A stretch of 64,000 nucleotides of DNA. It comes from an uncultured Nitrospira sp. Lineage in GTDB: Bacteria > Nitrospirota > Nitrospiria > Nitrospirales > Nitrospiraceae. The stretch's first letter is position 1, and each line of letters opens with the position of its first letter. The stretch lies in the NCBI GenBank assembly GCA_902500995.1, contig CABVSR010000010.1, positions 1 through 64,000 on the forward strand, read 5' to 3'. Position numbers and translations under genes: made by a program. The notes beneath the pieces were generated by a model. It searched no databases. It saw nothing but the letters and a program-made list of their open reading frames with translations, and was not told the origin of the DNA. Positions 34,083-64,000 of the stretch are shown here, piece by piece.

Positions 34083-35117
34083 ATGACCCACGACAGAGCC
34101 ACATCGTTCGCGCCAAATAGAGAGATGAACGGCACGGCGCATGCTCACGGCGGCTTGGCGGTCGAGCCCCTCACGCCTGACGGCAGCCTCCCTCTGGTGG
34201 TGTCACCGTCGGAAGTCCGGCCACTGGACGAGTATTTCGACGGCGCCCGCCGAATGGCCGAGACCTTGTTGCCGCTTGCCGGCGGCCTGTTGTTCCGCGG
34301 CTTGCCGATCAGGTCGGCAAGCGACTTCGAATCGTTCATCGGCGCGTTTACCTCGTCCCTGGTCTCATACGAATTCGGTTCCACGCCCCGCTCCCGCGTG
34401 CAGCGCCAGGTCTACACCTCGACGGAATATCCCCCGCACCAGCACATTCCGCTGCACAACGAACAGGCTTACACGAGAGAGTGGCCGATGAAGATCTGGT
34501 TCTATTGCGGGCAGGCCGCGGAGCAGGGCGGCTATACGCCTATCGCGGACAGCCGGGAAGTCTACCGGCGCATCCCGGCTCGCATACGCGAACGCTTCGT
34601 GCAGAAACAGATCATGTACGTCCGCAACTACGGCAACGGCTTGGACGTCCCCTGGCAGAAGGTGTTCAACAGTGACGACCCCGCCGTCGTGGAACGGTAT
34701 TGCCATGACAACGGGATCGACTACGAGTGGAAAGCAGACGGTGAGCTGCGCACCAGGCAAGTCGCCCAGGCCATCGCGGTGCATCCGCGAACCGGCCAGA
34801 CGGTCTGGTTCAATCAGGCCCACCTGTTCCACGTCTCGAATCTCGAAGCGGCGGTGCGGGAAGCGCTCCTGGCAGTCGTGGCCGAGGAAGACCTGCCGCG
34901 CAATGCCTGTTACGGAGACGGGAGCCCGATTGAGTCCGATCTGCTGGACGAGATTCGCGACGTCTATCGAAGCCTCGCGGTGCAGTTCGCGTGGCAACAG
35001 GGAGACGTGATGATGCTCGACAACATGCTGGCCGCCCATGGCCGCACGCCCTTTGCTGGGCGCCGGCAGATTCTCGTCGCCATGGCCGAGCCGCGGGGAG
35101 GGGAGACGCCATGCTGA
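34083..35117 (+). CDS. SyrP-like Fe(II)/2-oxoglutarate dioxygenase (putative aspartyl beta-hydroxylase)
   Basis: This TauD-fold enzyme of 344 aa has iron ligands H125 and E127 (LHNEQAY) and distal H319 (AAHGRTPF), with a presumptive 2-oxoglutarate-binding Arg soon after. The sequence [19 protein letters not shown] and [12 protein letters not shown] resembles SyrP, which hydroxylates carrier-bound aspartate. NRPS4 ends with a homologous domain, and two downstream adenylation domains have Asp codes. Hydroxylation of Asp-PCP to beta-hydroxyaspartate is therefore the favoured role. ATG 34083 follows CCGGAGGTACC. The stop overlaps NRPS2 by 7 bp. Confidence 0.88.
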
Positions 35118-41617: not shown

Positions 41618-44600
41618 TGCAGGCAATCACCAAACCAGAGATGGCTCAACGTATGACCGGTGGCGGGCTCACGAATATCGAAGCCGTCTATCCGCTTTCT
41701 CCCATGCAGGAGGGCATGCTGTTTCATACGCTGATGAATGCCGGTACCGGCATCTATTTGATGCAGAACCGGTACTGTGTGGAAGGGGACTTGGATCAGG
41801 CGGTATTCCGCCAAGCCTGGCAACAGGTCATCGCGCGCCACTCGATCCTGCGCACGTCTTTTGTCTGGAAAAGTCAGAAGCGTCCGTTGCAAGCCGTCCA
41901 TAAGAAATTCGAGGTGCCGCTGGACCTGCTGGACTGGCGAGACAAGGATCGTGCTACGCAGGCGGCCGATGTAGACGCGCTCTTGCAGCAGGAACTTGCC
42001 CAGGGATTTGACTTCGCGACGGCGCCGCTGATGCGCCTGCGATTAATCCGTCTCACCGACCGCACCTATCAGTTCGTACACAGCTTCCACCATATCCTGC
42101 TCGACGAATGGTGCATCTCGCCGCTCTTGATGGATTTCCTGGCTCACTATGAAGCGTGCGCCCAGGGTCTGGTGTGCCAGGCGGAAAAGCCGCGGCCCTA
42201 TCGCGATTACATCGCCTGGCTGCGACAACGCGACCTGAAGGCGGCCGAACGGTTTTGGCGCGAGTACCTTCAGGGATTTTCGACACCCACTCCGCTGGCC
42301 TACGACCGGCCGCCCGAAGGCTTGGCCGACCAGAACGACGACGCGGCGGACCATTGCGTCCACCTGAGTGCCGATCTCACGGCCCGGCTCACGGCGCTGG
42401 CCCAACAACATCGCGTGACGCCGAATACATTCGTGCAGGGCGCCTGGGCTCTGCTCCTCGCGCAGTACAGCGGTGAGCAGGACGTGCTGTTTGGTGTGAC
42501 GGTGGCAGGCCGCCCGACGCAGCTGGTCGGCGTTGAATCGGTGCTGGGCCTTTTCATCAATACACTGCCGTTGCGCGTGACCGTCTCGCCGAATCGTCCG
42601 GTCCTGGCCTGGCTGAAGGAACTATTCGCGGAAAACATCAGACTGCGGGAATACGAATACACGCCTCTCATTCAGATCCAGCGCGCCAGCGAGATCCCGC
42701 GCGGAGAAGCGCTGTTCCATAGCCTGTTCGTCTTCGAAAACGCGCCGGTTGATCCAGCGCTCTGCGAGGGGCGGATCATGTTCCGCGCGGAAGAAGAACA
42801 GTATCGGGTCCACACGAACTATCCCATGACCGTGATGGGTTGGCCCGGCAAGGAATTGGGGCTCAAGCTGTCCTACGACCGCCGACTCTTCGATGCGGAC
42901 ACCGTCCTCAAAATGATCGGTCACCTCAAAGCGCTGCTGGAAGGTCTGATCGCCAGGCCGGATGCCCGCATCGGCGAGTTGCCTATGCTGGAGCGGGAGG
43001 AACGTGCGCGATTGTTGTCCTATGGAATCGGGGAGAGCGATCAACCAACGGACGAGCGGAGTTTCGCCCTGCGATTCGAAGCGCAGGTGCGGCGATCACC
43101 GCAGGCCATCGCGGTCCGCTGCGGCGATCAGTCCCTGACCTACGAGGCATTGAATCGCCGGGCCAGTCGGCTGGTCCATCGGCTGAGAGCGGAAGGAGTC
43201 GGTCACGACTCGGTGGTCGCCCTGCTGGATGAGCGCGGGACAGACCTCCTCACGATGATCGTTGGATGTTTCAAAGTCGGAGGCGCCTATATGCCCCTCG
43301 ATCCGCACCATCCCGTCGCTCGCCTGTCCAGACTGCTGGAATTGAGCCGGGTTTCTGCCGTCGTCACCTCGCGGCGTGTGAAGTCCTACCTCGATCAGGT
43401 GCTGTCGGCCATGCCGCAAGAGGCGCGACCGGTGGTCGTGGTGCTGGATGAACTGCAAGCAGAGCCGGGATCGGAGGAGGATCGTGCGGTGCCTTCGCGC
43501 AGAGATCAGTTGGCCTACGTGATTTATACGAGCGGCTCGACCGGGGTGCCGAAGGGCGCCATGGTCACGATGGGCGGCATGCTCAACAATCTTGACAGCA
43601 AGCTGCGCTCCCTGTCGCTCGGCTCACAGGATGTCATCGCGCAGACCGCCTCTCAATGTTTCGATATCTCGGTGTGGCAATTCCTGACCGCGCTGCTGTG
43701 CGGCGCCACCACCCATATCTTGCCCGATGAGGTGGTGCGGGAGCCCTCGCGGCTGCTGGCAGAGCTCGGGACGACGGGCATCACCATTTACGAAGCCGTG
43801 CCCGCTGTCTTGCAGGCATTGTTGGATACGGCCGAGGGATCGGGCGAGCGATCGGAAGCGGCACCGGCTCTTGCCGGATTGCGCTGGGTCTTGCCGACCG
43901 GAGAAGCGCTGCCGCCGGCCCTCTGCCGACGCTGGTTCGAGCGGTACCCCAGCATTCCGTTGATGAATGCCTATGGTCCGGCCGAATGCGCCGACGATGT
44001 CGCGATCCATCCGATACATGAGTCGCCGGCCGAGCATCTCGCCCGGATGCCGATCGGACGGCCCATTCAACAGGTGCGCCTCTATATCCTCAACCGGTGG
44101 TTGGAGCCGGTCCCCGCCGGCGTCTCCGGCGAACTCTGCATCGGTGGGGTGGGAGTCGGTCGGGGATACTTGCAGGATCCTCAACGCACCGCGCAGGCAT
44201 TCCTGCCTGATCCCTTTGCGAGCGAGCGGGGAGCGAGACTCTATCGCACGGGCGACCTGGCCCGCTTCAGACCCGATGGCACGATCGAGTACGTGGGGCG
44301 CGTCGATCACCAGGTCAAGATTCGCGGCTTCCGCATCGAGTTGGGTGAAATCGAATCCTGCCTCACCGATCAAGACGAGATCCGAGAAGCGGCCGTCATC
44401 GTTCGAGAAGACCGGCCCGGAGACAAACGATTGGTCGCCTACGTCGTGCCGCAGGAGGGCCGTTCCGTTGACCACGATCGATTGCGGGCGGCGCTTCAGG
44501 AACAGCTCCCTGAATACATGGTTCCCGCGATCGTACTGCCGCTCGATGCCTTGCCGCGCACGCCGAACGGCAAGGTGGACCGGCGAGCCTTGCCCGCTCC

Positions 44601-47600
44601 TGATTGTGAGGATCTCGACCGAGCGTCCTACCTCGCGCCCCGTACCGTCACGGAGGAACTCCTGGCGTGCATCTGGGCGGATATCCTCGGGCTCGAACGG
44701 GTCGGGGTGCGGGACCATTTCTTTGAGTTGGGAGGCCATTCGCTCCTAGCTACCCAGGTCGTGTCCCGCATCCGGAACGCCTTTCACATCGAGCTGCCGT
44801 TACGGGCTGCCTTTGAGTGCCCCACCATCGCCGATCTGGCGGCCACAGTGGATCGGGTTCGTGCCGAAGGCAACGGCCGCCAAATTCCCCCATTGACGGC
44901 CTCGCGCCGGGAGGGGCCGGCTCCCTTGTCCTTTGCGCAACAGCGGCTTTGGTTCCTGGCGCAACTCGAACCGGAGAGTTGGCTGTACAACCTATCTTTC
45001 GGCATGCGGCTCCGGGGTCCGCTCGACGCCGGCGCCCTGTGCAGAAGCTTCGACGCCGTCGCGTTGAAGCATGATCAGTTGCGCACGCAATTTCTCCTCG
45101 TCGAAGGCCGGCCCGCCCAGGAAATCGTCGGTTGTTCCGCCGTGCCGTTTGAGCAACAGGAGGCGCACCTCAGGCCGGACGAGACCTCGGACGACTATGT
45201 TGCGCGCGCGGCGGCAGCGGAAGCCCAACGGCCCTTTATGCTGGAAGGCCATCTGCTCTGGCGCGTGAAGCTCGTGCGCCTGGGGGAGCAGGATCATCTG
45301 CTGCTCGTGACCTTGCACCATACGATCGCGGACGGCTGGTCGTTGAATCTGCTGCTGGCCGACATGGTCGACACCTACTGCGCCTTGCGCGGCGGCAAGC
45401 CAGTGCCCTTGCCGAGTCCAACGGTGCGGTACGCCGACTATGCACAATGGCAGCGCGAATGGATGACGGGAGAAGTCCTCGACCGCGAGCTGGACTATTG
45501 GAAGCGGACGCTCGGCGGCGCTCCCTCGATGTTGAGCCTGCAGACGGACCATGCCCGCCCCACCGTACAAACGTTCCGCGGCGCGCGGCACGATTTCACC
45601 GTCCCCTCGAATCTGCTCACGGCATTACAGGCGCTCAGCCGCCGGCAGGGCGCCACACTCTTCATGACCGTTCTCGCAGGCTTTCAGGTCCTGCTGCATC
45701 GCTACGGCGGTGATATGGATCTGTCGATCGGCACCCCGATCGCCAACCGCACCAGCCTGGAAACGGAAGACCTGATCGGTTTCTTCGTCAATACGCTGGT
45801 GCTGAGAACCGACCTGAGCGGCAATCCGCGGTTCATCGATCTCCTCGATCGGGTGCGGGACGTGGTGGTGGGTGCGCAGAGTCACCAAGATGTGCCCTTC
45901 GAGCAGGTGGTCGATGCGCTCAAACCGGAACGGGACCTGAGCCATGCGCCGCTTTTCCAGGTGATGTTCGCGCTCCAGACTCTCGGACGGCAGGCGATGG
46001 AGATTCCGGACCTCTCGATCGAGCCGGTGGAGGTCGATCCCGGGAGCGCGAAGTTCGATCTCTCGCTGGAAATGACCCTGGCACCGGAAGGTCTCACCGG
46101 GTTTTTCGAGTTCAATCTGGATCTCTTCGAGCCGTCCACGATCGCGCGCATGGCCGGGCATTTCCTTACCCTGCTCGAGAAGATTGTCGCGGAGCCGCAA
46201 CGCAAGCTCACGGCGTTTCCGATGATGGATGCCGCGGAGCGGGCGCAGGTGGTGGGGGCGTGGAACGAGACGGCCTGCGCCTATCCGGCGGTGTCGGTGC
46301 CCGCGCAGATCGCCGCCCAGGCCGCGCGGACTCCCGAGGCCGTGGCCGTGCGGGCCGGCGAGCAGACGCTGACCTATGCCGCATTGCTCACCCAGGCGCA
46401 GCAGCTCGCCGGCGCCCTCCGAGCACGCGGGATCGGCCCGGAAGCGCTCGTCGCGGTGGCGCTGGAGCGCTCGCTCGACCTGGTCGTGGCGCTGCTCGGG
46501 ACTTGGTATGCCGGCGCCGCCTTCGTGCCCCTCGATCCCTCCTATCCCGTCGAGCGCCTGCGCTATATGCTTGACGACAGCCACGCGGCGCTGCTGCTGA
46601 CCGATGCCGCCCAGGCCACCCGGCTCGCCCATGGCGGGCCTACGCTCTGCCTCGATCAGGACCGGGCCCAGTGGACCGCCGCGCCGGTGATGCCTCCGCC
46701 CGCGTTCGCCGAGGCGCAGCTCGCCTATGTGCTCTACACCTCCGGCTCCACCGGCCGGCCGAAGGGCGCCGGCAATACCCATGCGGGCCTGCGCAACCGG
46801 CTCCAGTGGATGCAAGAAGCCTATGTGCTCACCCCCGCCGACCGTGTGTTGCAGAAGACCCCCATCAGCTTCGATGTCTCCGTCTGGGAATTCTTCTGGC
46901 CCCTCCTCGCCGGCGCCGAACTGGTCATGGCCGAGCCGGGCGCCCATAAAGATCCCGCCCGCTTGCTCGACCACATCGACCAATACGGCATTACCACTCT
47001 GCATTTTGTGCCGCCCTTGCTGCAGGCCTTCGTCGATCACCCCGGCGTCGCACGCGGGCGGAGCCTGCGGCAGATCCTCTGTAGCGGCGAAGCCCTCCCG
47101 GCCACCTTGCCCCCGCGCGTGCAACAGCACTGGCCACACGTGACCCTGCATAATCTCTATGGGCCCACCGAAGCGGCCATCGATGTCACGGCCTGGACCT
47201 GTCCGACGCCCCCGCCTCCGACGGTCCCGATCGGGCGGCCCATTGCCAATCTCCAGTGTTACATTCTCGACCCGCAAGGCGAGCCCGTGCCGATCGGCGT
47301 GCCGGGGGAATGTTATCTCGGCGGCATCGGGGTCGGGCGGGGCTACCATCGGCGGCCGGAGCTGACCGCCGAGCGGTTCGTGCCCGATCCCTTCAGTGCG
47401 CAGCCCGGCCAGCGGCTCTATCGCACAGGGGATCTCGTGCGTTTCCGGCCCGACGGGGCCATCGACTATCTGGGCCGGTTGGATCAGCAGGTGAAGATTC
47501 GCGGCGTGCGCATCGAATTGGGGGAAGTCGAAGCCGCGCTCCGGCAGCAGCCGGGCATTCGCGAGGCGGTGGTCGTCGCCCGGCGGGACGGCCAAGCCGG

Positions 47601-49491
47601 AGCCCGGCTCATCGCCTATGTGACAACCGACCCGGATCGCCCGTGGGAGACCGCGGCGCTCAAGTCGGCGCTCGCGCGCACGCTGCCGGAGTATCTGGTG
47701 CCCGCGATCATCATCCCGCTGGCGCAGTTGCCGCTCAGCCCGAACGGGAAGGTGGATCGCAAAGCCTTGCCGGCCCCGGAGTGGGACACACAACGCACGC
47801 AGGCCTACGAGGCGCCCGCGACCGAGACCGAGGAGCAGCTCGCCGCCATCTGGGCCCAGGTGCTCGGCCTCCCCCAGGTCGGCCGCCACGACAACTTCTT
47901 CGAGCTCGGCGGGGATTCGATTCTTGCGCTGCAAGTCATTGCACAGGCCAAACAGATCGGTCTCTCGCTGACGCCCCGGCAGCTGTTTCAACAGCAAACG
48001 ATCCACGCGCTCGCGGTGGCCGCCCATCTGGAGGCGGACCGGTCGCCGGCCATTCAGGCTGATCAAGGGACGGTATCGGGATCATTCCCCATGACGCCGG
48101 CCCAACGCTGGTGGTTCGAGCAACGATTGTCCGAGCCCCATCACTGGAACCAATCGCTGATGGTCACGCTGTCCGAGCCGCCCGATCGCGCCAGGCTGGC
48201 CCGCGCCATCCGGTGGCTGCTGGATCAGCATGACGGTTTGCGCAGCCGCTTTGAGCGCACGAATGCCACCACCGCAAGAATCGAAGCGGCCGTCTCTCTG
48301 GACGAGGCGCTGGTGGTGATCGAACTTCACCAACAGGCCGACAGTGAAATATCGACCGCAATCGCGCGCGAGGCGGAGCGGTATCAGCAGAGCCTGGATG
48401 TGGAACGGGGGCCGCTGTTCCGCGCCGTCCTGTTTGATCCGGGTCCACAGCGTCCTGCGACGCTCCTGTTCATCGCGCACCATCTGGTCGTGGATGGCGT
48501 GTCGTGGCGCATCCTTTTGGAGGACCTCCAGCGGGTCTATCGCGATGAGGCAGGTGTCGCGCCGGCCGCCTGGCCTAAAACCACATCGATCAAACAATGG
48601 ACGGAAGCAGCGCAGCAGGCTGCTCAGTCCGAGACGGTCCTGAATGAACTGCCTTTCTGGGAGAAACAGGTTTCATCGGAAGTCTCCGGCCTCCCACTTG
48701 ACCATCCGGCGGCTGATGGGACGGAAGCTTCGACGGAAACCTGCCCGGTGACATTCACCAGAGCAGAAACCGAAGCGCTGTTGCGGGAAGCTCCCGCGGC
48801 CTACCGGACGCAGGTGAACGACCTTCTGCTGGCGGCCTTGGCACAGACGTTTCAGCGCTGGACCGGGCAGGGTCATCTGCTGGTGGACCTGGAAGGCCAT
48901 GGCCGCGAGCCCTTCGTGCCGGGAACGGATCTCGCTCGGACGGTCGGATGGTTCACGAGTATCTATCCGATTCTTCTGCGATTGCCGGAGGGTTCGAACG
49001 GCGACATCGTGAAGGGCATCAAGGAACAACTGCGGGCGGTCCCCTCCGGTGGAGTCGGGTACGGCCTGCTGCGGTATCTATCGCAACATCCCGGCGCCGT
49101 CCGGCTTCAGCAACCATCCTCTCCCCAGGTCTGCTTCAACTATCTGGGGCAGCTGGATCGGGGGACAGCCGGACAGAGCCTGTTTGAGCTGGCCGCCGGG
49201 CCGACGGGCAGGGAGCATGGACCATCCAATGTCATGCGGTACGAGTTCAACATCAACGCGGACATCACCGATGGCTGCCTCACCGTCAACTGGACCTACA
49301 GCCGCGCCAGAATCGATCGATCGACGATGGACAGGCTGGCGGCCTCATATCGCCGGCACCTGTGCGACCTGATCGCCCATTGCTGTTCGCCGGAGGCGGG
49401 CGGGTACACCCCGTCCGATTTCCCGGACGTCGACCTCGACCAGGATGCCCTCGACACCATTCTTCAGTCTATGGAGAGCCATGCACGATAA
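41617..49491 (+). CDS. NRPS3: C-A(Dab)-PCP-C-A(Ser)-PCP-E
   Basis: This is a 2,624-aa two-module synthetase ending in an epimerisation domain. Module 1: C with H158-H159 and the variant HHILLDEW (Glu replaces the Gly of HHxxxDG), A from Asp683 with code D-I-W-E-L-T-A-D-D (Dab-type), PCP Ser1042 (GGHSL). Module 2: C (HHTIADG from 1234), A from Asp1753 with serine code D-V-W-H-L-S-L-I-D, PCP Ser2101 (GGDSI), then E (about 2150-2600; HHLVVDG at 2288, [20 protein letters not shown]). D-Ser is predicted at this position. The C-terminus carries another short donor-like helix ([15 protein letters not shown]). ATG 41617 shares one base with the NRPS2 stop. Confidence 0.95.
46223..47921 (+). repeat. 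1,699-bp direct repeat, copy 2 (Ser A-PCP cassette in NRPS3)
   Basis: This is the second copy of the segment at 39696-41394. The downstream divergence begins 2 bp after the PCP serine codon, so the repeat covers the entire A domain and the first half of the PCP but neither C domain. Confidence 0.9.
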
Positions 49492-52400
49492 ATCGCACAT
49501 CGAAGCCATGTATTACTTGTCCCCGCTGCAGCAGGGGCTGCTCTTTCATCGCCTCGCCGACGCCGCGGCCGATCCCTACTTCTACCAGTATGCCTATCGC
49601 TTGCGTGGCGACCTGCGACCGGACGCCTTCGAGCAAGCCTGGCAAGCGGCGGTGGACCGCCATGCCGTGCTGCGGACGGCCTTCATCTGGGAAGGGGTGG
49701 AGAAACCGCTGCAAGTCGTCCGCCGGCAGGTGCGGCTCCCGATCGAGCGCCATGATTGGCGAGGCGTGCCGGCGAGCGAGCAAGGCGCGCGCTTTCAGTT
49801 CTTGCTCGAACGCGATCGCGCTGCTGGAGTAGATCTGCTTCAGCCGCCCCTGATGCGGCTCCATCTGATCCGGAAGGAGGAGCGCGAGTGGCTGTTGATC
49901 AACAGCCACCACCACATCCTGTTGGATGGATGGAGCATGGCCATCCTGTTGCGCGACGTGCTCACGGCCTATGAAACGCTCGTGACGGGGAAGGCTCCGG
50001 CATTGGCGACCACCAGGCCCTATCGCGACTACATCTCGTGGGTCAATCGCCGGGACATGCAGCAGGCAGAAACCTATTGGCGCGGGATCTTAGCGGGATT
50101 CGCGCGGCCGACCACCATACCGATCGAGGCTCCGTCTGAACAGATGAGCGCCGACTCATGGCCGTTCGCCGAGCAGTGCTGGCAATGGTCAACGGATAAG
50201 ACCGATGCGCTGCAAGCGTTCGCCAAACGGTGTAGGGTCACCGTCAATACGGTATTGCAAGGAGCCTGGGCCTTGCTGCTGCATCGCTATAGCGGAGAGC
50301 AGGACCTCTTGTTCGGCGCGACCGTCTCCGGGCGCACGCCCGAGCTGGCCGGCGTGGAGGACATGGTCGGTCTCTTCATCAACAGTTTGCCGATTCGTAT
50401 CTTCGTTCGACCGGAGCAGAAGTTGGCCGACTGGCTGCGGGCTGTGCAGGAGCAGAATGCGACGTTGCGGCAATATGAATGGACTCCCCTCAGCGACATC
50501 CAACGTTGGAGCGACGTACCCAACGGGACGGCTTTGTTCGAGAGCCTCATGGTGTTTGAAAGTTACCCGGAGGCCGAGGACGACCAAACGCCGTCGCTCA
50601 TCATTGAGCCGCTGGCTGCTGCACGAAGCGGCGCCTATACGATGACGCAGGGGCGCAACAACTATCCGCTTTCGTTGATGGTCGAACCGGGCCGGGACCT
50701 GCGTGTCATCGTCTGTTACGCCCACCGTCGGTTCGCGCATGCGGCGATCACCAGGATGATCGGACATCTGGAGGCGCTACTGACCGCGATGGTCAAGACC
50801 GAGGATGCCGCGATCGGGACGCTGCCCATCACCACGGAAGGCGAGGCACGTCAACTCGCGGCGTGGAACGGCTCGTTCTCAAGCGGCGAGCCAGAGGAGA
50901 CCTGCATCCATGACGCAATCGCCGCCCAGGTGCAAGCACAGCCCGAGGCGGTAGCGGTCGTCACCAAACAGGAGCGGGTGACCTATGGTGAGCTGGACCG
51001 TCGGGCGAATCGGCTGGCCAGGTATCTGCGGGCGCAAGGAATGAAGTTAGAGGACCGGGTCTGCCTCTGTCTGGACCGGTCGCTGGATCTGGTCGTCGGG
51101 ATCCTCGCCGTGCTTAAAGCCGGCGGAGCCTATGTGCCGCTGGATGCGACCTATCCCCGTGAACGGCTCGCCGCGATGGTGGCCGACAGCGAGTCCCGCT
51201 TCATCATCAGCCGAAGCGAGCAAGCCAAAGGCCTCGAACAGGGTCTCGCGCATGTGATTCTGCTGGACCGCCAAGCCGGGGTCATCGAGGATTACGATGA
51301 CACGCCGCTCGCGACATCAGTGTCGCCCCGCAACCTTGCCTATGTGATCTACACCTCAGGCTCCACCGGCCGCCCCAAGGGAGTGGCGGTGGAACATCGC
51401 CAGGTGACGGCCTATGTGAACGCCGTCCTACAGCTTGAACCAGTCGCGGCCGGACGAAGCATGGCGGCCGTCTCGACCGTGGCGGCTGATCTCGGCAATA
51501 CGGCACTGTTCGGCGCGCTCTGTTCCGGCCGTACGCTGCACCTGCTTCCGACCGAAGACAGTTTCGACCCCGATGCGATGGCCGCAGCCATGCATGATCG
51601 ACAGGTCGAGGTGCTCAAGATCGTGCCGAGCCATCTGAAAGGGCTTCTCCACGCCGCCCATGCCGAACGGGTGTTGCCCACTCGCTGCCTGATGCTCGGG
51701 GGGGAATCGCTCCGTGGCGATCTCATCCAGCAGATCCGCCGATTGGCCCCGGCCTGCGCCATCGTCAACCACTATGGGCCGACCGAAACGACGGTCGGCT
51801 GCTTGGCCCATGTGATCGAGGCATCAGCCGACGGGATCGCAGCCGACGCGCCGATCGGCCGGCCCTTCTCGTCTGTACAAGCCCACGTCCTCGACCGTGA
51901 TGGCCGGCAGACCCCGGTCGGCCTGCCAGGGGAACTCTACATCGGTGGACTGCAAGTCACGCGCGGCTATCTCAACCGGCCGGAGGCCACGGCGGAACGG
52001 TTCGTGCCGGACCCGTTCAGTCGCAGGCTCGGAACGAGGCTCTATCAAACAGGCGACCGGGCGAAACGCAGGGCCGACGGCACCATCGAATTCCTCGGGC
52101 GGGTGGATCATCAAGTGAAGATTCGCGGGTTCCGCATCGAGCTGGGCGAGATCGAGACGCAATTGCGGAGCGACCCGGAAGTCTCCGATGCGGTCGCTGT
52201 CGTGCGCGAACAAGCAGACGGCACGCAACAGCTCGCAGCCTATCTCACCGGTCTTTCTACGCTGGATACGGAAGCCGTTCGAACCAGGCTCCTCTCCCGT
52301 CTGCCCGAGTACATGGTGCCGAACACCTTTGTGATATTGGATGCCTTTCCCCTGACCGCCAACGGCAAGCTCGACCGGGCGGCTCTGCCTGATCCCGGCC

Positions 52401-55400
52401 TGCAGACCCTTGCGGCCCAGTCACCCTACGTCGCGCCACGGAACAGGGCCGAGGAGATTCTGACGGGAATCTGGCAAACCGTGTTGCAGCTCGATCGGGT
52501 CGGCGTCCATGACAATTTCTTCGCGTTGGGCGGCGACTCGATCCGCACGCTGCAAGTCATTGCGCGCGCCAACCGAGAAGGCGTGAAACTCACGCCCAAA
52601 CAACTCTTTGAACATCAGACCATCGCTGCCGCCGCGGCGGTCGCGCAGGTGAAGGATGGGCGGGAGCAGGGCGATCTGCCCAAGGCCGCCGTCACTCAGA
52701 AGCCGGTTACACCGACCACCTCAAGCCTTCCGGACTTTCCGCTCACGGGCCTCGCTCCGGAGGGCCTGGCGGCGCGCCGTGACGATTGGGCAGCCATCGA
52801 GGATTGTTATCCCTTGTCGCCCATGCAGGAAGGCATGCTGTTTCACAGTCTGATGAATCCCGGCTCCGGCATCTATCTCATGCAGCAGTTTTACGCCTGG
52901 GAGGGGAGGCTGGATCGTGAGGTCTTCGGTCAGGCCTGGCAATCGGTCATCGACCGGCATCCGATGCTCCGCACCTCGTTCATGTGGAAGGACCTGGCGG
53001 CGCCGCTCCAAGTCGTCCACCGGCAGGTCCAGGCGGAGAACGTGATCCAAGACCTGGATTGGACCGAGCTTAGCGACGATCAGCAGCAGACCCGCATGGG
53101 GGAGTTACTGGAGCAAGAGCTGAAAGACGGCTTGGATTTCGAGCGGGTTCCGCTGATGCGGATCCGTCTGGTCCGGCGCGGTCCAGACCGGTATGCGATC
53201 GTGCGGAGCTTTCACCACATCCTGACCGACGATTGGTGTTTTTCCCTGCTGATGATGGATTTTCTAACCCACTATGATGCTCGCCTGCAGGGCCGGTTGG
53301 CCGATCTTCCGAAGCCGGCGCCCTATCGCGACTACATCGCCTGGTTGCAACGGCAGGATCAGTCGGCGGCGGAACAGTTCTGGAAAAAAGAGCTGGCTGG
53401 ATTTGCGACTGCCACCCCATTAGGCATCGAACGGTTGGACCCCGACGCCTCGGCCGGCGGGTCGGCCGTGAGCGATGAGTTCATGGAATTGTCGCCGGCC
53501 GTTTCCGAACGTCTGCGGACCTTGGCGCAGCAGCACTATGTGACCCCGAACACGTTCCTGCAAGGGGCATGGGCCATTCTGCTGTCGCGGTACAGCGGAG
53601 AACGAGACCTGTTGTTCGGCGTCACCGTTGCAGGAAGACCGACCGACTTGCCGGGCGTCGAGGACATCGTGGGCCTCTTCATCAATACGCTGCCGCTTCG
53701 CGTGACCGTCAGGCCGGATGTGCCGGTGATGATCTGGCTCCGTCATCTCTTGGCGGAGAACTATCGCATCCGCCAGTACGAATACGCGCCGCTGGTGCGC
53801 ATCCAACAATGGAGCGAGGTGCCGGTGGGACAGGCGCTTTTCCGCAGCCTGCTGGTTTTCGAAAATGCGCCGAAGGATGCGCAGCTTGGAGAAGAACGGG
53901 CGGACCGGTCGCTCTCCTATGATCAGGATCGCGTGCACACGAACTATCCCATGACCGTCGTCGGGTATCCCGGCGAGTCGATGGGCGTGCGCCTCTCGTA
54001 CGATCGGCGGCTCTTTCAATCTGCCGACGTGGCGCGGATGCTCGCGCATCTCAGGCGACTGCTCGAATCGATGGCGACGTCGCCTGAAGCGGCAATCCGT
54101 GATTTGCCCATGTTGGATGACGGTGAACGGGAGCGTCTGCTGACCCTATGGAGTGGGAGCGACCGCGATGAAGCGACGGCGGCTGATTTCCCCACGCTCT
54201 TCGAAGCCCAAGTTAAACGCATGCCGTTCGCAACGGCGGTGGAATGCGGCGATGCCGGCATGACCTACGATGAACTCAACCGTGCCGCCGACACTGTCGC
54301 TCGGGGGTTGCGCGAACGGGGAGTCGGGACCGATGACATTATCGCGTTGCTGGATGATCGCAGCCCGGCGCTCTTGTCGATGATCGTCGGCGTGCTCAAG
54401 GCCCGGGGCGCCTATCTGCCCTTGGATCCACACCATCCGGCTGAACGACTGGCTCAGATCGTCTCTTCCGCCCGGGCAAACATCATCCTGGCGGGAGCCG
54501 ACCATCTTTCCTTGGCGTCCGCCGTGGCAGGCCTGGTTGCGGAAGGTGTGAGGCCGCTGGTTCTGTCTATGGAAGACGTGAGCAAAGCCGGGGAGAGGGG
54601 AATCACGCAGTCAAGCGCCGCGGCATCCGGCGGTACCGCTTGCAACCGCCTTGCCTATGTCATTTTCACCTCCGGTTCCACCGGCAAGCCCAAGGGCGCG
54701 ATGGTGGAATCACGGGGCATGATGAATCACCTGACCAGCAAAATCCCGACGCTGGGGCTGACGCCGGCGGATGCCGTGGCGCAGACCGCCTCACAATGTT
54801 TCGACATCTCGGTGTGGCAATTATTGACACCGCTGCTCTGCGGCGCGCGGGTGTGCATCATTCCCGATGAGATCGTCCGCGACCCGCAGCGTCTGTTGAA
54901 CGAAGTGGCGGCGCGCCGCCTGTCGGTGCTGGAGCTGGTGCCGTCCTTGTTGGGTGGTCTGCTGGATGGGCCGCCCTTGCCGCTCCCACATCTGCGCTGG
55001 TTGTTGCCCACGGGCGAAGCCTTGTCGCCGGCGTTGTCTCGCCGCTGGTTTGCTCGGTATCCGGCGGTGCCGCTGCTGAACGCGTACGGCCCGGCCGAGT
55101 GTTCGGACGATGTGGCCGTGGCCTGTATCCGCCACGCGCCGGCCGAAGACGAAACCAGCATGCCGATCGGCCGGCCGATCACCGGCGTGCGGTTGTATGT
55201 GCTCGATCGCCATCTGGATCTGATGCCGCCCGGCGTGGCCGGAGAGCTCTGCGTCGGCGGTGTGGCGGTGGGGAGAGGGTACCTGCATGATCCGGCGCGA
55301 ACCGCCGAGGTCTTCGTGCCGGACCCCTTTGGCTCCGAGCCCGGGAGCCGGCTGTACCGGACCGGTGACCTGGTGCGCTACAGGCCTGACGGCTTGTTGG

Positions 55401-58400
55401 AGTTCGTGGGACGACGCGATCATCAGGTCAAGCTGCGCGGATTCCGTATCGAACTGGGCGAGATCGAGGCGCGGCTGGCGCAACATCCAGATGTGGACCG
55501 CTGTGTGGTCGTCGTGGCGGAGCCGCAGCCTGGACATCAGCAATTGGTGGCCTACGTCGCCACGGCGGTCACGTTGCACACCGATGGGTTGCGGGTCTTT
55601 TTGCGCCGTACCTTGCCTGACTATATGGTGCCGGCCCTGTTCGTCCTGCTGCCTGCCTTGCCGCTGACGCCGAACGGCAAGATCGATCGAAAAGCCTTGC
55701 CCGTGCCGGATGCGGATCGCGCGGCCGACGATTTCGAACCGGCGGCCACACCTACGCAGGACCTCATCGGGGGAATCTGGTCCGACATCCTCGGTCTGGA
55801 TCGCATCGGCAGGCGGGATCACTTTTTCGAACTCGGGGGCCATTCGCTTCTGGCCACTCAAGTCATGTCCCGCGTGCGTGCCGCGTTCCAGGTCGAACTG
55901 CCGTTACGGACCCTGTTCGATCATCCCACGGTGGAAGCCTTTGCCGCGGCCATCGATCAAGCGGTGACACAAGGCGACAAGACTCAGGTTCCTCCGCTCG
56001 TGCCGATGCCGAAGACCGATGCGATGCCGCTCTCCTTCGCGCAGCAGCGCCTCTGGTTCCTGACGCAAATCGACCCGGACAGCGGCGCCTACAACTTGCC
56101 GTTCGCCCTGCGCCTCGGCGGCAGGTTGAACCATCACCTGCTCGAGCGCAGTTTTCTCGCACTAATTCGGCGGCATGAAACCTTGCGCACGACCTTTCCC
56201 GCAGTGGACGGGGAACCGCGGCAGGTGATCGTCGAGGCAGATCACTTCTCGATCCCCGTCGAGGACCTGGCAACGTTGTCCGAGTCCGAGCGGACGGCGG
56301 CCATCGGCCGGTCTGTGGAATCAGCGGCGCATCAGCCGTTTCACCTCGACCGCGACCTGCCGATTCGTGCGCGCCTCCTCAGGATCAGCGGCGATGCTCA
56401 CATCCTGCTGGTGACGATCCATCATATCGCCGCCGACGCCTGGTCCCTGGCGGTCGTGACCCATGAAATCGCCGCCGTCTACAATACCTTGGCCAATCAG
56501 CCAGAGGTCTCCGCCGGGCAGCAAGAGGGCGACCCGTCAACGTTCCTCCCGCCGCTGCCCGTTCAATATCGCGACTTCGCCTTCTGGCAGCGGCAGTGGC
56601 TCCAAGGAGCTGTCCTGGAACGCGAGCTCGGCTATTGGAAGCAGCGGCTTGGTGCCGCGCCTCCACAACTGACGCTGCACACGGACCATCCCCGGCCCGA
56701 GCAGCAAAGTTATCGCGGCGGGGGGATCACGTTCCACATACCGGCAGAGGTGCTCGACCCTCTGCGGCGATTGAGCCGGCGGCAGGGCGTAACCCTGTTC
56801 ATGACGTTGCTCGCCGCGTTCAAGGTGCTGTTGTCCCGGTTGGCCAGGCAGACCGACATCCTGGTCGGCACGGATGTCGCCAACCGCAACCGCGCCGAAA
56901 CCGAGCAGCTGGTGGGATTTTTCGTGAATCTGCTCCCGTTGCGTACGGACCTCAGCGGGAACCCTTCGTTCCTGCAGCTCCTGGGCCGCGTGCGGGACAC
57001 GGCCTTGGGCGCCTATGCCCATCAGGATGTGCCCTTCGAAAAAATCGTGGAGTCGCTCAGGTTGCCGCGCAATCTCGGTAGAAATCCTCTGGTGCAAGTC
57101 CTGTTCGTCCTGCAAAACGTGCCGCCCCCTTCGTTGGAACTATCGGGAGTGAATGTCGAGTCGCTGGAGTTCGAGCATGAGGTCTCGCGGTTCGATGTCG
57201 GGCTCTTCATGGAAGAAACCGAAGATGGGTGTGCCGGTCTGTGGAAATTCAGCCGCGACCTGTTCGAATTCGAGACGATCGCGGGCTGGACGCAGCAATT
57301 CCTGCGGTTGTTGCGCCACATCGGTCAGACACCCGAGCGGGGGATCGAGACGCTGGAGATCGGCGAGACGGAGACACAGGAGACGCAGACCATGGATCAG
57401 CAGCAACGGAACGATCAGCGGCTTCAGCGATTCAAGGCGATCAAACCCAAACCCATCGCGCTGGCGCAACGAACGCTAGTGACCGGCCGGCCCCTCGTGG
57501 AAGGCCAAGCGATGCCGTGGGTGTATACGCCGGCGGTGGACGATGTGGATCTCGCCGGATGGGTGAAGGACCAGCGGAGCCGATTGCAGCGCGAATTGTT
57601 CCAGGCCGGGGCCCTGTTGTTTCGAGGGTTTCCGCTCAAGACCGTGCAAGACTTCGAGTCGGTTGCGCAGGCCTTCTGCACCGACCTGTTCGGCGAATAC
57701 GGCGATCTGCCCCGGGAGAAGAGCGGCCGCCATGTCTACGGCTCGACCCCGTACCCGCCGGACAAGCCCATTCTGTTTCACAACGAAAGCTCGCACATGC
57801 ACCGCTGGCCGCAGAAACAGTTTTTCTTCTGCCTGCAGGCGGCACGGGAAGGCGGGCAGACGCCGATCGTCGACGGCCGGCTGATGCTCAAGGGCCTCCG
57901 GCCGGAGTTGCGCGAGCGGCTGCAGAGCAAACAGCTGATGTACGTCCGGAACTTTCACCCGAGCGTGGATGTCAGCTGGCAAGACTTCTTCCGCACGACC
58001 GACAAGGCTGCGGTCGAAGCCATGTGTGCTCAGAACGGTTTGGAATGGCAGTGGCTGGACAAGGAAGGGTTGCGCACTAAACAGCTCTGCCCCGCGATCA
58101 TCGAGCATCCGGACACGGGTGACGCCGTCTTCTTCAATCAGATCCAGCTCCATCACGTGTCCTGTTTGGAGCCGGCGGTGCGTGAGTCCCTGATCTCGAT
58201 GCTCGGTGTCGATTCTGTGCCGCGAAACGTCTACTACGGTGACGGCACACCGATCGAAGATGAGGTGGTCGATGAGATCGGGGCCTTGTATGAACGCACT
58301 GCCGTGCGGTTTCCCTGGCAGCAGGGCGATCTGATCATGTTGGACAACATGCTCGTGGCCCATGCCCGCGATCCCTTTGTCGGACCGCGCAAGATCGTGG

Positions 58401-58453
58401 TCGCCATGGGTGAGATGATCGCCCAATCCGCCGTGCAGTCCATGACATCGTAG
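49481..58453 (+). CDS. NRPS4: C-A(Asp)-PCP-C-A(Dab)-PCP-C-dioxygenase
   Basis: At 2,990 aa this is the largest complete gene. Module 1: C (HHILLDG, H144/H145), A from Asp670 (ADLGNT) reading D-L-T-K-M-G-H-V-G, an aspartate-type code, PCP Ser1020. Module 2: C with HHILTDDW (Asp replaces Gly, H1245/H1246), A from Asp1775 with Dab-type code D-I-W-E-L-T-A-D-D, PCP Ser2122. A third C domain (HHIAADAW, H2314/H2315) is followed not by A-PCP but by a linker and a SyrP-like Fe(II)/2-oxoglutarate dioxygenase (about 2645-2980) with ligands H2767, E2769 and H2961. This fused domain is a candidate aspartyl beta-hydroxylase acting on Asp-PCP in NRPS4 or NRPS5. ATG 49481 has GGAGAG upstream and overlaps NRPS3 by 11 bp. 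Confidence 0.95.
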
Positions 58454-58460
58454 GAGACGT

Positions 58461-61400
58461 ATGCAACAGGAGATCGACGTTCAGGGGTTGCGACTCTCGC
58501 CGCAGCAGAAGAGGCTCTGGCTCTGGCAGCACGAGGGCCATGCCGGGCAGGTGCGCGCTGTCTTCGCGGTTGATGGATCGTTCGACGAGGAGACCGTTCG
58601 GAAATCGTTCCGCCAGGTGATGGCTCGTCATGAGAGTCTTCGCACGACGTTCTATCGGCAGCCGGGCACAAAGCTGCCGTTTCAAGTCGTCGGAGAAGAC
58701 AGTGAATTGGCCTGGCAAGCCGTCGATCTTCGTCACCTCGCAGACGACGCGGCGAGGGAACGGGCTGCCGCCGAGGCTGCTCATGGCCATGAGGGTTGTG
58801 ATGGGGAACGCGGCCCGTTGCTGCGCGCCACCTTCTGTCAGTGGACGGATGGCGAGAACCGCCTGCTCCTCGATCTGCCGGGCCTCTGCGCCGATACGGC
58901 ATCACTCTGGAACCTTGCCGCTGAAATGACCCGTTCGTTAGCCGGAGGTGAGGCAGCGGAAGAGCCGGTTCAGTATGGTCACTATTCAGAATGGCAGCAT
59001 GAATTGCTCGAGGGGGACGACGCGGTGCAGGGGCGGGCCTGGTGGGCCAGCCGGTTGGTGACCAGCGAGCACCATCTTGCCTTACCGTTTGAGCGTGGTT
59101 CCTCTCTCGAACCGGACCGTGCCGCCGCGCTACAGATTCAACGCGACCTGTCCGCGTTCGGCGCGAAGCGCCTGCAGCAGGCAGCGGCCGCTGCCCAGGT
59201 GTCCGTGCCGATTGTGCTCTGCGCATGTTGGGCGGCGCTGCTCTATCGCATGACGGCGCGGCGCGATCTCGTCTGCTGGTGGCGATCCGACGGTCGCCCC
59301 TATGAGGAATTGTCCGGCGGGATCGGACTCTATGAACGCTGGCTGCCGCTCCACCTGCGGGTCGAAGGGAATATGAGGCTTCGCGATTGTCTCTCGCTGT
59401 TGTCGCGTGAACAGAGCCAAGCGGAAGACTGGCAGCAATATTTCCCTGCGGAGCAGCCTGAAGAACAGATCCAAACCATGAGGGACGCGATCGGCTTCGA
59501 GTACGGCCGCCTTCCCAAGCGAGAGAGAGCGGGAGCGCCTGCCGTCACTCTCATGGGCAGTGGGTTTTGCGCGGAACCTCTCAAGCTTCGGCTGTCCTGC
59601 ATGGAGCATGACGCAGGGCTCGCCATGACCTGGCACCTGGATGGGGAGAGAATCCCGGCCGAAATCCTGGAAGGATTGGCCGATCGCTACATGGAATTGC
59701 TGGGCCACCTGCCGGAACAACTCGACCATGCGATCGATGACATGGAGATCCTGGGCAACCGGGAGCGGATCAGACTGACCAGGGCGCTGAACCAGACCGC
59801 CCGATCCTGTGAGCCGCCGCTCTTGATGCATCAGGTGATCGAAGCTCAGGCGAAACGCCGGCCTTCCTGCAGGGCGCTCATCGCGGGTGTCCGGCAATTG
59901 TCCTATGCCGACCTCAACCGGCAGGCCAATCGTGTCGCGCGGGGCCTCAGGCGGCGAGGTGTCACCGTCGGCGACCGGGTTGGCCTGTGCATCGATCGTT
60001 CGGCCGACATGATCGTGGCCATGCTGGGCGTGCTGAAGGCGGGCGCTGCCTATGTCCCGGTCGATCCGGCCCATGCCGCCGTGCGGCTGGCGCCTCAGAT
60101 GCAGCAGAGTGGGGCGACGATTCTGTTGACCCAAGCCGGCATGAACCAATCACCGTTCAAGTTTGACGGGGTGACGGTACAGCTTCCCGAGGATGTGGCG
60201 GACGAAGCAGACGATGATCTCGATCTGGCATTCTCGCCCGACGAACTGGCCTACGTGATCTACACCTCCGGATCGACCGGCCGGCCGAAAGGCGTCGCCG
60301 TGTCTCACCGGAATCTGGCCAACTATACGTCGGCCATCACGCGGCGGTTGCATCTCGGCGATGAGTGGCAGTTCGCGACGGTTTCCACGTTGAGCGCCGA
60401 TCTGGGTCACACCGTGCTGTTTCCCGCGCTGACCTCCGGTGGCTGCCTGCACGTCATCGGTTATGACACCGCCACCGACGGGCGGGCGTTCGCCTCCTAT
60501 CTGGCGCAACATCCCATCGACGTCCTGAAAATCGTGCCGTCCCATTTCAAGGCGCTCTTGGCGACCAGTGAGGGGCAGGCCGTCTGGCCGCGACAGGTAC
60601 TCGTTTTCGGCGGTGAGACCTTGCCCTGGGATCTGGCCGATCAGGTCAGGCAACAGGCGACTTGCCGCGTCATCAACCACTATGGACCGACGGAGACCAC
60701 GGTCGGCGCGACGACCACCGCGGTGACCGACGCAGCCGACCCACGTCTTGCGCGGAGCGTTCCCATCGGTCGCCCTCTCGACAATGTGGACACCTACATC
60801 CTCGACGAACGATTGGAACCGGTGCCGGTCGGCGTGGCGGGAGAGCTGTATATCGGCGGGCTTGGGGTTGCGCGCGGCTACTGGAATCAGCCGGACCGCA
60901 CCGCCGAACGATTTGTCCCGCATCCGCATTCCGCGCAACCAGGCGCGCGCCTCTATCGAACCGGCGATCGGACGAGGCGGCTGCCGGACGGCTCGATCGA
61001 GTTTTTAGGCCGGGTAGATCACCAAGTGAAGATCAGGGGATTTCGAATCGAACTCGGAGAAATCGAGTCGGTGCTGCGGGAGCATCCCGCCGTCCAGGAT
61101 GCGGTCGGCACGCTGCGGGACAACGAGAAAGGCGAACCGTCCCTCGCGGCCTATCTGGTGCCACGAGGAGCCGTGCCGGATGACCGGGCGATTCAGGACT
61201 TCCTCCGCGGACGCCTGCCGGATTACATGGTCCCGGCGACCATCACTCTCTTGCCCGCCTTGCCCTTGACCGCCAACGGGAAGGTGGATCGTCACGCCCT
61301 CCCGGAACCGGAACGGGACGGTTACGGCGCGCGCTGGTTCGTGGCGCCGGCCACGGCGACGGAGGAGATCTTGGCCGGCCTCTGGGCCGATGTGTTGAAG

Positions 61401-64000
61401 CGGGAGCAAATCGGCACCCAGGATAATTTTTTCGACCTGGGGGGACATTCTCTATTGGCCACGCAGGTCATGTCGCGGTTGCGCAACGCCTTTGGGGTTG
61501 AGCTGCCGTTACGCGCGCTCTTCGAGGCGCCCTCCATCGCCAAGCTGGCGCCGGTAATCGATGCCGCCAGAAAGACGGATCCGGGGCAACAGGCGCCTCC
61601 GCTGACGGCGATTCCCCGAACCGGGCCCATCCCGCTTTCCTTTGCTCAACAGCGGCTCTGGGTGCTGGCGCAGTTGGAGCCGGACAGCACGGCCTACCAT
61701 ATTCCGATCGCCCTGCGTGTGAAGGGTGTGCTCGACACGACCGCCTTGGAGCGGAGCTTCGATGAAGTCGTGCGACGCCACGAAGCCTTGCGCACCAAGT
61801 TCCAGCGTCTCAATGGCGTGCCGATGCAAGTCATCGCTCAAGCGCAATCTTTCTCGATCCCGCTGATCGATCTCCAGCATCTTCCCGACGAGCGGCGCGA
61901 GCAGGCCGCCATGCGGTTGGCGGCAGTTGAAGCGGAGCGCCCGTTCGACCTGCGGTACGGGCCGCTGTTGCGCGTGAGCCTCATCCGGCTGAAGTCGATG
62001 GAACAGATGCTGCTGGTGACCTTGCACCACATCGTGTCGGACGCCTGGTCCTCGCATCTGCTGGTGAAGGAAGTGATCGAGGTCTATGAGGCCACGGTCA
62101 CGGGACGTCCGCCTGTGCTCGCGGACATGCCGCTGCAATATGCCGATGTCTCGCAATGGCAGCGGGCCTGGTTGAGCGGGCCGGTGCTCGAACGGGAATT
62201 GTCCTTTTGGAAAGATGTGCTCGGCGGAGAACTGCCGGTGCTGGAGTTGCCGACGGATCGGCCCAGGCCGGCGGTGCAGACTTCGCGGGGGGCGATCATC
62301 ACTTCGAGCATCGGCCCTGAGCTTGCCGCTGAGATCAAGACCGTGAGCCGCCGGTCCGGCGCGACGCTGTACATGACGTTGTTGAGCGCCTTCTTCATGC
62401 TCCTTGCGCGGGAGACGGGGCAAACGGATCTCATTGTCGGGACGCCGATCGCGAACCGCACGAGGAAGGAAACCGAAGGTCTGATCGGATTCTTCGTCAA
62501 TACGCTGGCCATTCGAACCACCGTCTCCCATGCTTCCGTTGTTGCGGAGGTGATCGCGGCGGTACGCGAAGCCTGCCTGGACGCCTATGCCCATCAAGAG
62601 ACCCCCTTCGAACAACTGGTCGATGTGCTGCAACCGTCGCGCGACGTGAGCCGGTCGCCGATTTTTCAGGTCATGTTCGATCTGCAGAATGCGCCGATGG
62701 CCGAGTTGCAGGTCGCGGGACTGGAATTCGAACCGGTCGAGATCGAGAGCACGACCGCCAAGTTCGACCTGTCGATGACGGTGCAGGAGTCGGGCGAGGG
62801 AATGATTGTGGGCCTCGAATACAACAGCGACCTCTTTGAGCCAACCACCATCACGCGCTTGCTGGAACGGTATGCACTCATCCTGGCCGCGCTGGGCGGC
62901 CATCTTCGCGCCACCGTAGGATCGATCCCGTTGCTGACGCAAAAGGAGCGGCAGAGCCTCCTGGCGGTGAATCGCGCCGGTGGGTCCTCAGGGCCGCTGT
63001 TGCCGTTGGCGACGCTCATCGAAGCGCAAGTGGTTCTCACGCCGGACGCGCCGGCCTTGCTGTCGAACGGTCACACCTTGTCCTATGCGGTGCTCAATCA
63101 GAAGGCGAATCGCCTGGCTCGCTGGTTGCGTAACGGGGGACTGAAACCTGAAGCACGAGTCGGGCTCCGTCTCGAGCGATCCGCCGAGTTGGTCGTGGCG
63201 CTGCTGGCGGTTATGAAAGCGGGAGGAACCTACGTCCCGATCGATCCGGCCTATCCGGCACCGCGTCAGCGGCAGATAGCCGTCGATGCAGGCTTCGATC
63301 TCCTATTGATCGACGGCGACGCGTTGCCGGGCGACGCAGAATTTCCCATGCCGGTCCAGTCGCTGGATCTTCTAGAAGGTGAGCTGGAGTCGTTAGACGG
63401 CAGCAACCTGCCTGCTTCATTTTCCCCGGAGCAGGCGGCCTACGTGATTTTCACCTCCGGTTCCACCGGGACACCCAAGGGGGTGGTGGTGTCGCAAGGG
63501 GCCCTGGCCCGGCATGTCGACACGATCTCGGAAGCCTATCGCCTTGGTCCTGGTGATCGGGTGCTGCAATTCGCCTCGATCAGCTTCGACGTGGCGGGTG
63601 AAGAAATCTGGTCAACCCTCGCGGCCGGCGCGGCGCTGATTCTGCAACCCTGCCGGCTGTTCGATTCACTCTCGGCCTTTGCCGCCTTTCTCGATCGCGA
63701 GGGGGTCACGGTCGCAGGCGTGCCTGCTTCTTACTGGCATGAATGGATCGGGGCTATCGAAGGCGGCTGCGCCCTGCCATCCTCCTTGCGGCTGGTGATC
63801 GTCGGGAACGAGCCGGTCGCGTCCTTCGACCTTGACCGATGGCGTCGGCTGGTGAATCCGGCGGTTCGATGGCTCAACGCCTACGGCCCGACGGAAACGA
63901 CGGTCACCGCCAGTCTGCACGAGCCGGTGACTGTGAGCGAGGACAGCGAGTCCGCGACCGTGCCGATCGGCCGGCCCTTACCCGGTCGTTCTTTCTATGT
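58461..64000 (+). CDS. NRPS5 (partial): degenerate C-A(Asp)-PCP-C-A..., continues past window end
   Basis: The open frame runs from ATG 58461 (AGGAG 5 bp upstream) to the window edge, at least 1,846 codons. The first about 430 residues have a C-domain fold but no HHxxxDG; the equivalent place reads LDLPGLCADTASLW around D138, so it is probably not a peptide-bond catalyst. A domain 1 starts its pocket at Asp647 (ADLGHT) and reads D-L-T-K-V-G-H-V-G, an aspartate code; PCP serine is S997. A second C domain (HHIVSDAW, H1189/H1190) is canonical in length. A domain 2 (from Asp1710, FDVAGEE) reads about D-V-E-A-I-G-A-V-T, related to the NRPS1 pocket and unassigned. The release domain must lie downstream. 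Confidence 0.93.
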   Translation, partial: MQQEIDVQGLRLSPQQKRLWLWQHEGHAGQVRAVFAVDGSFDEETVRKSFRQVMARHESLRTTFYRQPGTKLPFQVVGEDSELAWQAVDLRHLADDAARERAAAEAAHGHEGCDGERGPLLRATFCQWTDGENRLLLDLPGLCADTASLWNLAAEMTRSLAGGEAAEEPVQYGHYSEWQHELLEGDDAVQGRAWWASRLVTSEHHLALPFERGSSLEPDRAAALQIQRDLSAFGAKRLQQAAAAAQVSVPIVLCACWAALLYRMTARRDLVCWWRSDGRPYEELSGGIGLYERWLPLHLRVEGNMRLRDCLSLLSREQSQAEDWQQYFPAEQPEEQIQTMRDAIGFEYGRLPKRERAGAPAVTLMGSGFCAEPLKLRLSCMEHDAGLAMTWHLDGERIPAEILEGLADRYMELLGHLPEQLDHAIDDMEILGNRERIRLTRALNQTARSCEPPLLMHQVIEAQAKRRPSCRALIAGVRQLSYADLNRQANRVARGLRRRGVTVGDRVGLCIDRSADMIVAMLGVLKAGAAYVPVDPAHAAVRLAPQMQQSGATILLTQAGMNQSPFKFDGVTVQLPEDVADEADDDLDLAFSPDELAYVIYTSGSTGRPKGVAVSHRNLANYTSAITRRLHLGDEWQFATVSTLSADLGHTVLFPALTSGGCLHVIGYDTATDGRAFASYLAQHPIDVLKIVPSHFKALLATSEGQAVWPRQVLVFGGETLPWDLADQVRQQATCRVINHYGPTETTVGATTTAVTDAADPRLARSVPIGRPLDNVDTYILDERLEPVPVGVAGELYIGGLGVARGYWNQPDRTAERFVPHPHSAQPGARLYRTGDRTRRLPDGSIEFLGRVDHQVKIRGFRIELGEIESVLREHPAVQDAVGTLRDNEKGEPSLAAYLVPRGAVPDDRAIQDFLRGRLPDYMVPATITLLPALPLTANGKVDRHALPEPERDGYGARWFVAPATATEEILAGLWADVLKREQIGTQDNFFDLGGHSLLATQVMSRLRNAFGVELPLRALFEAPSIAKLAPVIDAARKTDPGQQAPPLTAIPRTGPIPLSFAQQRLWVLAQLEPDSTAYHIPIALRVKGVLDTTALERSFDEVVRRHEALRTKFQRLNGVPMQVIAQAQSFSIPLIDLQHLPDERREQAAMRLAAVEAERPFDLRYGPLLRVSLIRLKSMEQMLLVTLHHIVSDAWSSHLLVKEVIEVYEATVTGRPPVLADMPLQYADVSQWQRAWLSGPVLERELSFWKDVLGGELPVLELPTDRPRPAVQTSRGAIITSSIGPELAAEIKTVSRRSGATLYMTLLSAFFMLLARETGQTDLIVGTPIANRTRKETEGLIGFFVNTLAIRTTVSHASVVAEVIAAVREACLDAYAHQETPFEQLVDVLQPSRDVSRSPIFQVMFDLQNAPMAELQVAGLEFEPVEIESTTAKFDLSMTVQESGEGMIVGLEYNSDLFEPTTITRLLERYALILAALGGHLRATVGSIPLLTQKERQSLLAVNRAGGSSGPLLPLATLIEAQVVLTPDAPALLSNGHTLSYAVLNQKANRLARWLRNGGLKPEARVGLRLERSAELVVALLAVMKAGGTYVPIDPAYPAPRQRQIAVDAGFDLLLIDGDALPGDAEFPMPVQSLDLLEGELESLDGSNLPASFSPEQAAYVIFTSGSTGTPKGVVVSQGALARHVDTISEAYRLGPGDRVLQFASISFDVAGEEIWSTLAAGAALILQPCRLFDSLSAFAAFLDREGVTVAGVPASYWHEWIGAIEGGCALPSSLRLVIVGNEPVASFDLDRWRRLVNPAVRWLNAYGPTETTVTASLHEPVTVSEDSESATVPIGRPLPGRSFY

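Follow-up and report, generated by a model that had tools for sequence, protein, structure and literature searches.

In 2019, Reitz and colleagues reportedly proposed that an interface domain, a member of the condensation (C) superfamily, positions the β-hydroxylase and its T-bound Asp. A published rule assigns 3S products to fused Asp β-hydroxylases and 3R products to stand-alone ones. Two described clusters come closest to the one presented here, which shares with each of them the following layout. In the cyanochelin B cluster of Leptolyngbya sp. NIES-3755 (PMC12628792), one NRPS terminates in a fused β-hydroxylase (βH), the next NRPS has an HH-less domain and then A(Asp) at its start, another βH is encoded as a stand-alone enzyme, and the assembly line starts with FAAL and PKS; its fused enzyme is reported to give L-threo β-hydroxyaspartate (β-OHAsp). 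The potashchelin cluster of Halomonas (PMC7100376) comprises FAAL-ACP-C-TauD followed by C-A(Asp), again with one fused and one stand-alone enzyme, and its product contains both L-threo and L-erythro β-OHAsp.

The genus Nitrospira, nitrite-oxidising nitrifiers important in soils and wastewater, harbours a conserved β-OHAsp lipopeptide cluster of this kind. The region analysed here is very probably the split Asp-β-hydroxylating module of such an assembly line, most likely one for a siderophore. Built-in profiles of antiSMASH cover siderophore β-hydroxylases and interface domains. The NRP-metallophore regions of Nitrospirota, 16 in number, have been counted at phylum level only. The literature searched contained no description of this Nitrospira cluster, and we know of no product made by it.

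The window (the whole stretch of 64,000 nucleotides that was analysed) lies at the start of a 161-kb contig, in a 3.97-Mb genome that is most closely related, among named genomes, to Nitrospira, Candidatus Nitrospira defluvii FP929003 among them. The cluster spans roughly 15.0-65.6 kb of the contig. It begins with an MFS exporter, a FAAL-T-C-A protein with a C-terminal methyltransferase-like domain and a small gene encoding the C-terminal part of an A domain with a T domain. It continues with a PKS (KS-AT-KR-T), a cyclic-peptide ABC exporter, a Dab transaminase and a penicillin-acylase family protein, and closes with a thioesterase, a stand-alone TauD enzyme and four NRPS genes. From domain order and specificity codes, the predicted product is acyl-X-ketide-Dab-Ser-Dab-(D-)Ser-βOHAsp-Dab-βOHAsp-Y, where X and Y are the residues with codes DVENVGAIT and DVEGIGAVT, respectively. 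A search for RNA features within the window returned none.

Three details of the layout deserve mention in their own right. The C-terminal part of the FAAL-C-A protein (21300-22262) has no Pfam match and resembles guanidinoacetate N-methyltransferase in the PDB (3e-28), while the rest of the protein's A domain and its T domain occupy the separate small gene at 22264-22911. A perfect 1,699-bp direct repeat (39696-41394 and 46223-47921) takes in the Ser A-T portions of two of the NRPS genes, through gene conversion or as an assembly artefact. Finally, the penicillin-acylase family protein (30613-32997) of this fatty-acyl-primed NRPS cluster is weakly PvdQ-like; acylases are also found in the β-OHAsp-type clusters of Leptolyngbya boryana and Methylomagnum, and their presence there suggests that an acylated precursor is deacylated.

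The fused hydroxylase belongs to NRPS4, a single stop-free open frame with the following features (contig coordinates):

49445..58453, + strand: NRPS4, 3002 aa, C-A(Asp)-T-C-A(Dab)-T-C-βH
49490..50824, + strand: C1, DCL family, motif HHHILLDGW; the upstream NRPS ends in an E domain
50924..52399, + strand: A1, code DLTKMGHVG = Asp; first β-OHAsp site
52457..52669, + strand: T domain of module 1, GGDS motif ([11 protein letters not shown])
52787..54124, + strand: C2, DCL family, unusual motif [10 protein letters not shown]; not preceded by an E domain
54212..55954, + strand: A and T domains of module 2, code DIWELTADD = Dab
56018..57382, + strand: C3, condensation domain of LCL type, complete ([10 protein letters not shown]); it forms the condensing half of the split Asp module
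57512..58450, + strand: Asp β-hydroxylase domain fused to NRPS4 at its extreme C-terminus, IβHAsp/CyanoBH-like

Pfam recognizes in it three Condensation, two AMP-binding and two PP-binding domains and one C-terminal TauD domain (residues 2700-2987, 2.2e-48). C3 (residues 2192-2646, motif HHIAADAW) passes directly into TauD, with neither A nor T between them. This domain order bears out the original prediction of an NRPS4 ending in C-dioxygenase without an intervening A-PCP; the predicted extent was right overall, its start at 55990 falling about 30 bases upstream of C3. The C-TauD end could be regarded as a remnant, left after loss of an A-T pair between the two domains, and the module as dead. 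All that speaks for this is the surprise of a C domain without an A-T of its own; the catalytic residues of both C3 and TauD are intact, and the same C-TauD / interface-A(Asp) order is seen again in nine more Nitrospira genomes (with NRPS5 one module shorter in one of them) and in about 60 independent loci, Asp always coming next. Since the arrangement recurs, the remnant reading is already refuted, and we give it practically no credence; the presence of the arrangement in the nine other genomes also rules out an assembly accident. The idea that an A-T pair is missing between C3 and TauD was rejected: NRPS4 and NRPS5 share the second Asp module, whose other half opens NRPS5.

58461..65624, + strand: NRPS5, HH-less Condensation-family domain, then A, T, C, A, T, TE
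58461..59795, + strand: interface domain with C-fold; LPGLCADTAS stands in place of the HH motif
59841..61550, + strand: first A domain and T domain of NRPS5, code DLTKVGHVG = Asp, T motif GGHS; second β-OHAsp site
61629..62963, + strand: LCL C domain, recipient of the second β-OHAsp

The gene after NRPS4 had been expected to start with a degenerate C domain and an Asp A domain, and so it does: the HH motif is absent, LPGLCADTA(S) occupying the position of HHxxxDG, and the A domain has the code DLTKVGHVG. With DLTKMGHVG at the other site, Asp codes are found in the A domains of both sites for which Asp selection had been proposed. The N-terminal domain of NRPS5 belongs to the C superfamily, has lost HHxxxDG, precedes an Asp A domain and adjoins a fused βH, all of which mark it as an interface domain. 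Its AlphaFold model (pLDDT 86) has the C-domain fold, with P450-recruiting X domains among the PDB matches. In the domain tree it groups in a 95-member HH-less clade (support 1.0), which includes the domain following the cyanochelin B fused enzyme and was built from sequences other than the reference set of Reitz et al. The likeness to interface domains and β-hydroxylases drawn in the original prediction is right in its link, with the interface domain being the N-terminal domain of NRPS5 and not C3. As an interface domain, C3 was rejected: it keeps HHxxxD and is placed among LCL domains. With C3 complete and the start of NRPS5 HH-less, the condensation and loading halves sit on different proteins, and hydroxylase and interface domain occupy the junction between them.

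To look beyond this genome, we used profiles derived from the window to annotate 80 loci (from named genomes and selected plasmid records). The next NRPS frame is readable in 66 fused loci, a number that includes 4 duplicate copies and corresponds to about 60 independent loci of several phyla; in these, the domain preceding the next A lacks the HHxxxD catalytic motif; a few loose HH pattern hits in next-module domains fall outside the motif position. All 55 such domains of sufficient length for the tree belong to the single HH-less clade, as did 92/92 in an earlier tree. Conversely, HHxxxD is kept in each of the 74 C domains that precede a fused βH.

The codes of the flanking A domains tell where the fused enzyme acts. 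After the fused hydroxylase, the A domain has an Asp code in 63/63 readable cases; before it, Asp occurs in 0/56, the residue being Gly, Dab, Thr, Ser or another. In the remaining fused loci the previous A is absent or outside the locus, and in three of them, arranged as FAAL-T-C-βH, no A precedes the fused enzyme. With Asp as the next module throughout, and with no previous A in some loci, the target of the fused hydroxylase must lie on the next protein. Proximity on one polypeptide would instead favour action on a residue of NRPS4 itself, Asp or Dab, leaving the NRPS5 Asp to the stand-alone enzyme; given these codes, and an interface domain that tracks with the next module of the fused enzyme, we consider this very unlikely. 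At the joint itself, a median of 4 residues follows βH and a median of 16 (an upper bound) precedes the interface domain, so we see no room for classical docking domains.

Some loci depart from this plan. One genome of the same genus has only a stand-alone hydroxylase (64% identity) in a rearranged FAAL/PKS-NRPS cluster. In G003 and G011, also of the genus, the cluster is divided between two contigs; in G016, 750 kb separate the two halves. In seven cyanobacterial loci an HH-less interface-type domain also follows the stand-alone hydroxylase, unlike in Nitrospira and Proteobacteria.

Taken together, the layout points to the following sequence of events, in which we infer the order of steps and also that βH docks physically onto the interface domain, the likeliest contact between the two proteins. 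The A domain of NRPS5 would load Asp onto the NRPS5 T domain. The interface domain, for which condensation by the usual His chemistry should be impossible, would then meet the hydroxylase at the tail of NRPS4 and deliver the T-bound Asp to its Fe(II)/2-oxoglutarate site; such recruitment would resemble, by analogy, that of a P450 by the teicoplanin X domain. C3, presumably a working condensation domain, would join the β-OHAsp to the chain delivered by the Dab module. The other Asp, in NRPS4 module 1, where an interface domain is lacking, would be the target of the stand-alone hydroxylase.

34083..35117, + strand: stand-alone TauD-family Asp β-hydroxylase (TβHAsp-like), Pfam TauD 2.5e-47, intact HxE...H...R

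This separate dioxygenase is present and intact, as anticipated. Its match is found in 11 of 29 genomes of the genus (the window's own included), 10 of which have both types; among 198 sampled genomes of the phylum, 15 have a match, and 14 of them combine both hydroxylase types. A maximum-likelihood tree of 133 hydroxylase domains has three main groups: the stand-alone enzymes of Nitrospira and Proteobacteria (14 rows, support 100), the cyanobacterial stand-alone enzymes, and a group holding all 79 fused enzymes (90 rows, support 100). The window's stand-alone enzyme falls in the first and its fused enzyme in the third, where it shares a clade (support 100) with the fused enzyme of cyanochelin B. 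The fused enzyme is a C-terminal TauD-family fusion on an NRPS with an HxE...H iron site and a TauD fold in its AlphaFold model (pLDDT 89), and by its tree clade is of the IβHAsp (or CyanoBH-like) type. Membership of the proteobacterial stand-alone clade and a target module without an interface domain place the other enzyme with TβHAsp. Neither dioxygenase groups with chlorinases or non-Asp hydroxylases, and HxE...H...R is present in all rows covering the sites. A chlorinase or other non-hydroxylating TauD was rejected on the same residues, and a single 'HNG' from a loose pattern search was a chance hit; none of the sequences has a chlorinase-type site. Elsewhere in the tree, stand-alone enzymes of five Ktedonobacteria loci (Chloroflexota; L066, L071, L075, L076, L077) sit inside the fused clade, as if the fusion had been lost or had been gained late; L076 and L077 also have interface-type domains.

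From clade membership only, the fused enzyme is predicted to form L-threo (3S) β-OHAsp and the stand-alone one 3R β-OHAsp. Separate clades, together with the published rule, therefore make a different β-stereochemistry at the two sites a good prediction rather than a demonstration. The earlier proposal that each site has its own stereochemistry holds to this extent for the β-carbon; at the α-carbon of the first Asp either configuration is conceivable, because the C domain that follows is of the DCL family and the module has no E domain.

This module 1 of NRPS4, the presumed target of the stand-alone enzyme, consists of an ordinary C domain, the Asp A domain and a GGDS-type T domain, and is followed by the DCL-family C2, whose best PDB match by sequence is a PvdL C domain located after an E domain. 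The C domain following the fused-enzyme Asp is LCL. Asp is the donor for 21 of the 25 DCL-clade C domains that directly follow T, a count that shared cluster ancestry could inflate; examples come from Nitrospira, Sorangium, Janthinobacterium, Pseudomonas and three cyanobacteria, and also from Azospirillum. Dual C/E domains have an N-terminal HHxxxxGD motif, which by eye is absent from C2, and C2 was rejected as a typical dual C/E domain. Candidate readings are that an E domain was lost, or that the DCL domain may accept a 3R residue or epimerise. That DCL domains at stand-alone sites are gates for 3R residues or epimerisers, and with the hydroxylase type set the stereochemistry of each site, is a tentative idea, which we hold to be rather doubtful. 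The DCL-family domains at these sites offer a new, testable handle on stereocontrol. DCL C domains after E-less modules are also seen at ~41680-43000 (the first C of NRPS 41617-49491) and as the second C domain of NRPS 34991-41617. The donors of these E-less modules are Dab, Ser and β-OHAsp, the pattern is conserved in Nitrospira, and two of the DCL domains share the motif FHHIL[TL]D[DE]WC.

The product of the cluster is probably a siderophore. In favour of this are the two predicted β-OHAsp, the cyclic-peptide exporter within the cluster, which scores over its cut-off, and a pair of TonB siderophore receptors above the TIGR01783 cut-off, each beside FecR, 11-23 kb downstream; N. defluvii likewise has receptor, FecR and TonB genes of similar type downstream. 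Against it, the receptors lie outside the cluster, and the two β-OHAsp supply only two of the three bidentate groups expected. No ornithine/lysine monooxygenase scored over threshold in the genome, which also speaks against it, and a hydroxamate siderophore was set aside for that reason.

The same assembly line, with its split module working alike, could make a cationic antibiotic lipopeptide instead. Turnercyclamycin, a β-OHAsp-bearing antibiotic lipopeptide that is not a siderophore and is picked up by the same profiles, is a precedent; three Dab modules beside two β-OHAsp, the missing Orn/Lys monooxygenase and a conserved RND pump adjoining the cluster would fit such a product. We find it unlikely in view of the nearby TonB receptors with FecR, the placement of both dioxygenases among enzymes of siderophore clusters, and the cyanochelins made by cyanobacterial clusters with the same two-hydroxylase plan. 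If the siderophore reading is true, a photoreactive iron chelator from nitrite oxidisers would bear on their iron supply.

Compared with the known systems, the locus differs in several respects. The stand-alone module of cyanochelin B has an interface-type domain and an E domain (D-threo), whereas the Nitrospira module has neither (PMC12628792). In potashchelin, an LCL annotation is given to the C domain that follows the stand-alone-site Asp, in contrast to the DCL-family domain of Nitrospira, and an N-OH-Orn is present (PMC7100376); the Nitrospira genome yielded no Orn/Lys monooxygenase. The IβHAsp/TβHAsp systems of Reitz et al. 2019 show the same fused and stand-alone types in another host phylum and with other peptides. 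The X domain of glycopeptide synthetases likewise has the C-fold and recruits an oxygenase to a T-bound residue (a fold match, and an analogy only); it recruits P450s, and its oxygenase, unlike the Nitrospira βH, is not fused to the end of the neighbouring protein. The split C-βH / I-A-T architecture as such is already published (Reitz 2019; potashchelin; cyanochelin B), and our broad comparison confirms the target of the fused β-hydroxylase as always the Asp of the next protein. New are the DCL-family C domain after a stand-alone-site Asp without an E domain and the Nitrospira β-OHAsp lipopeptide assembly line itself.
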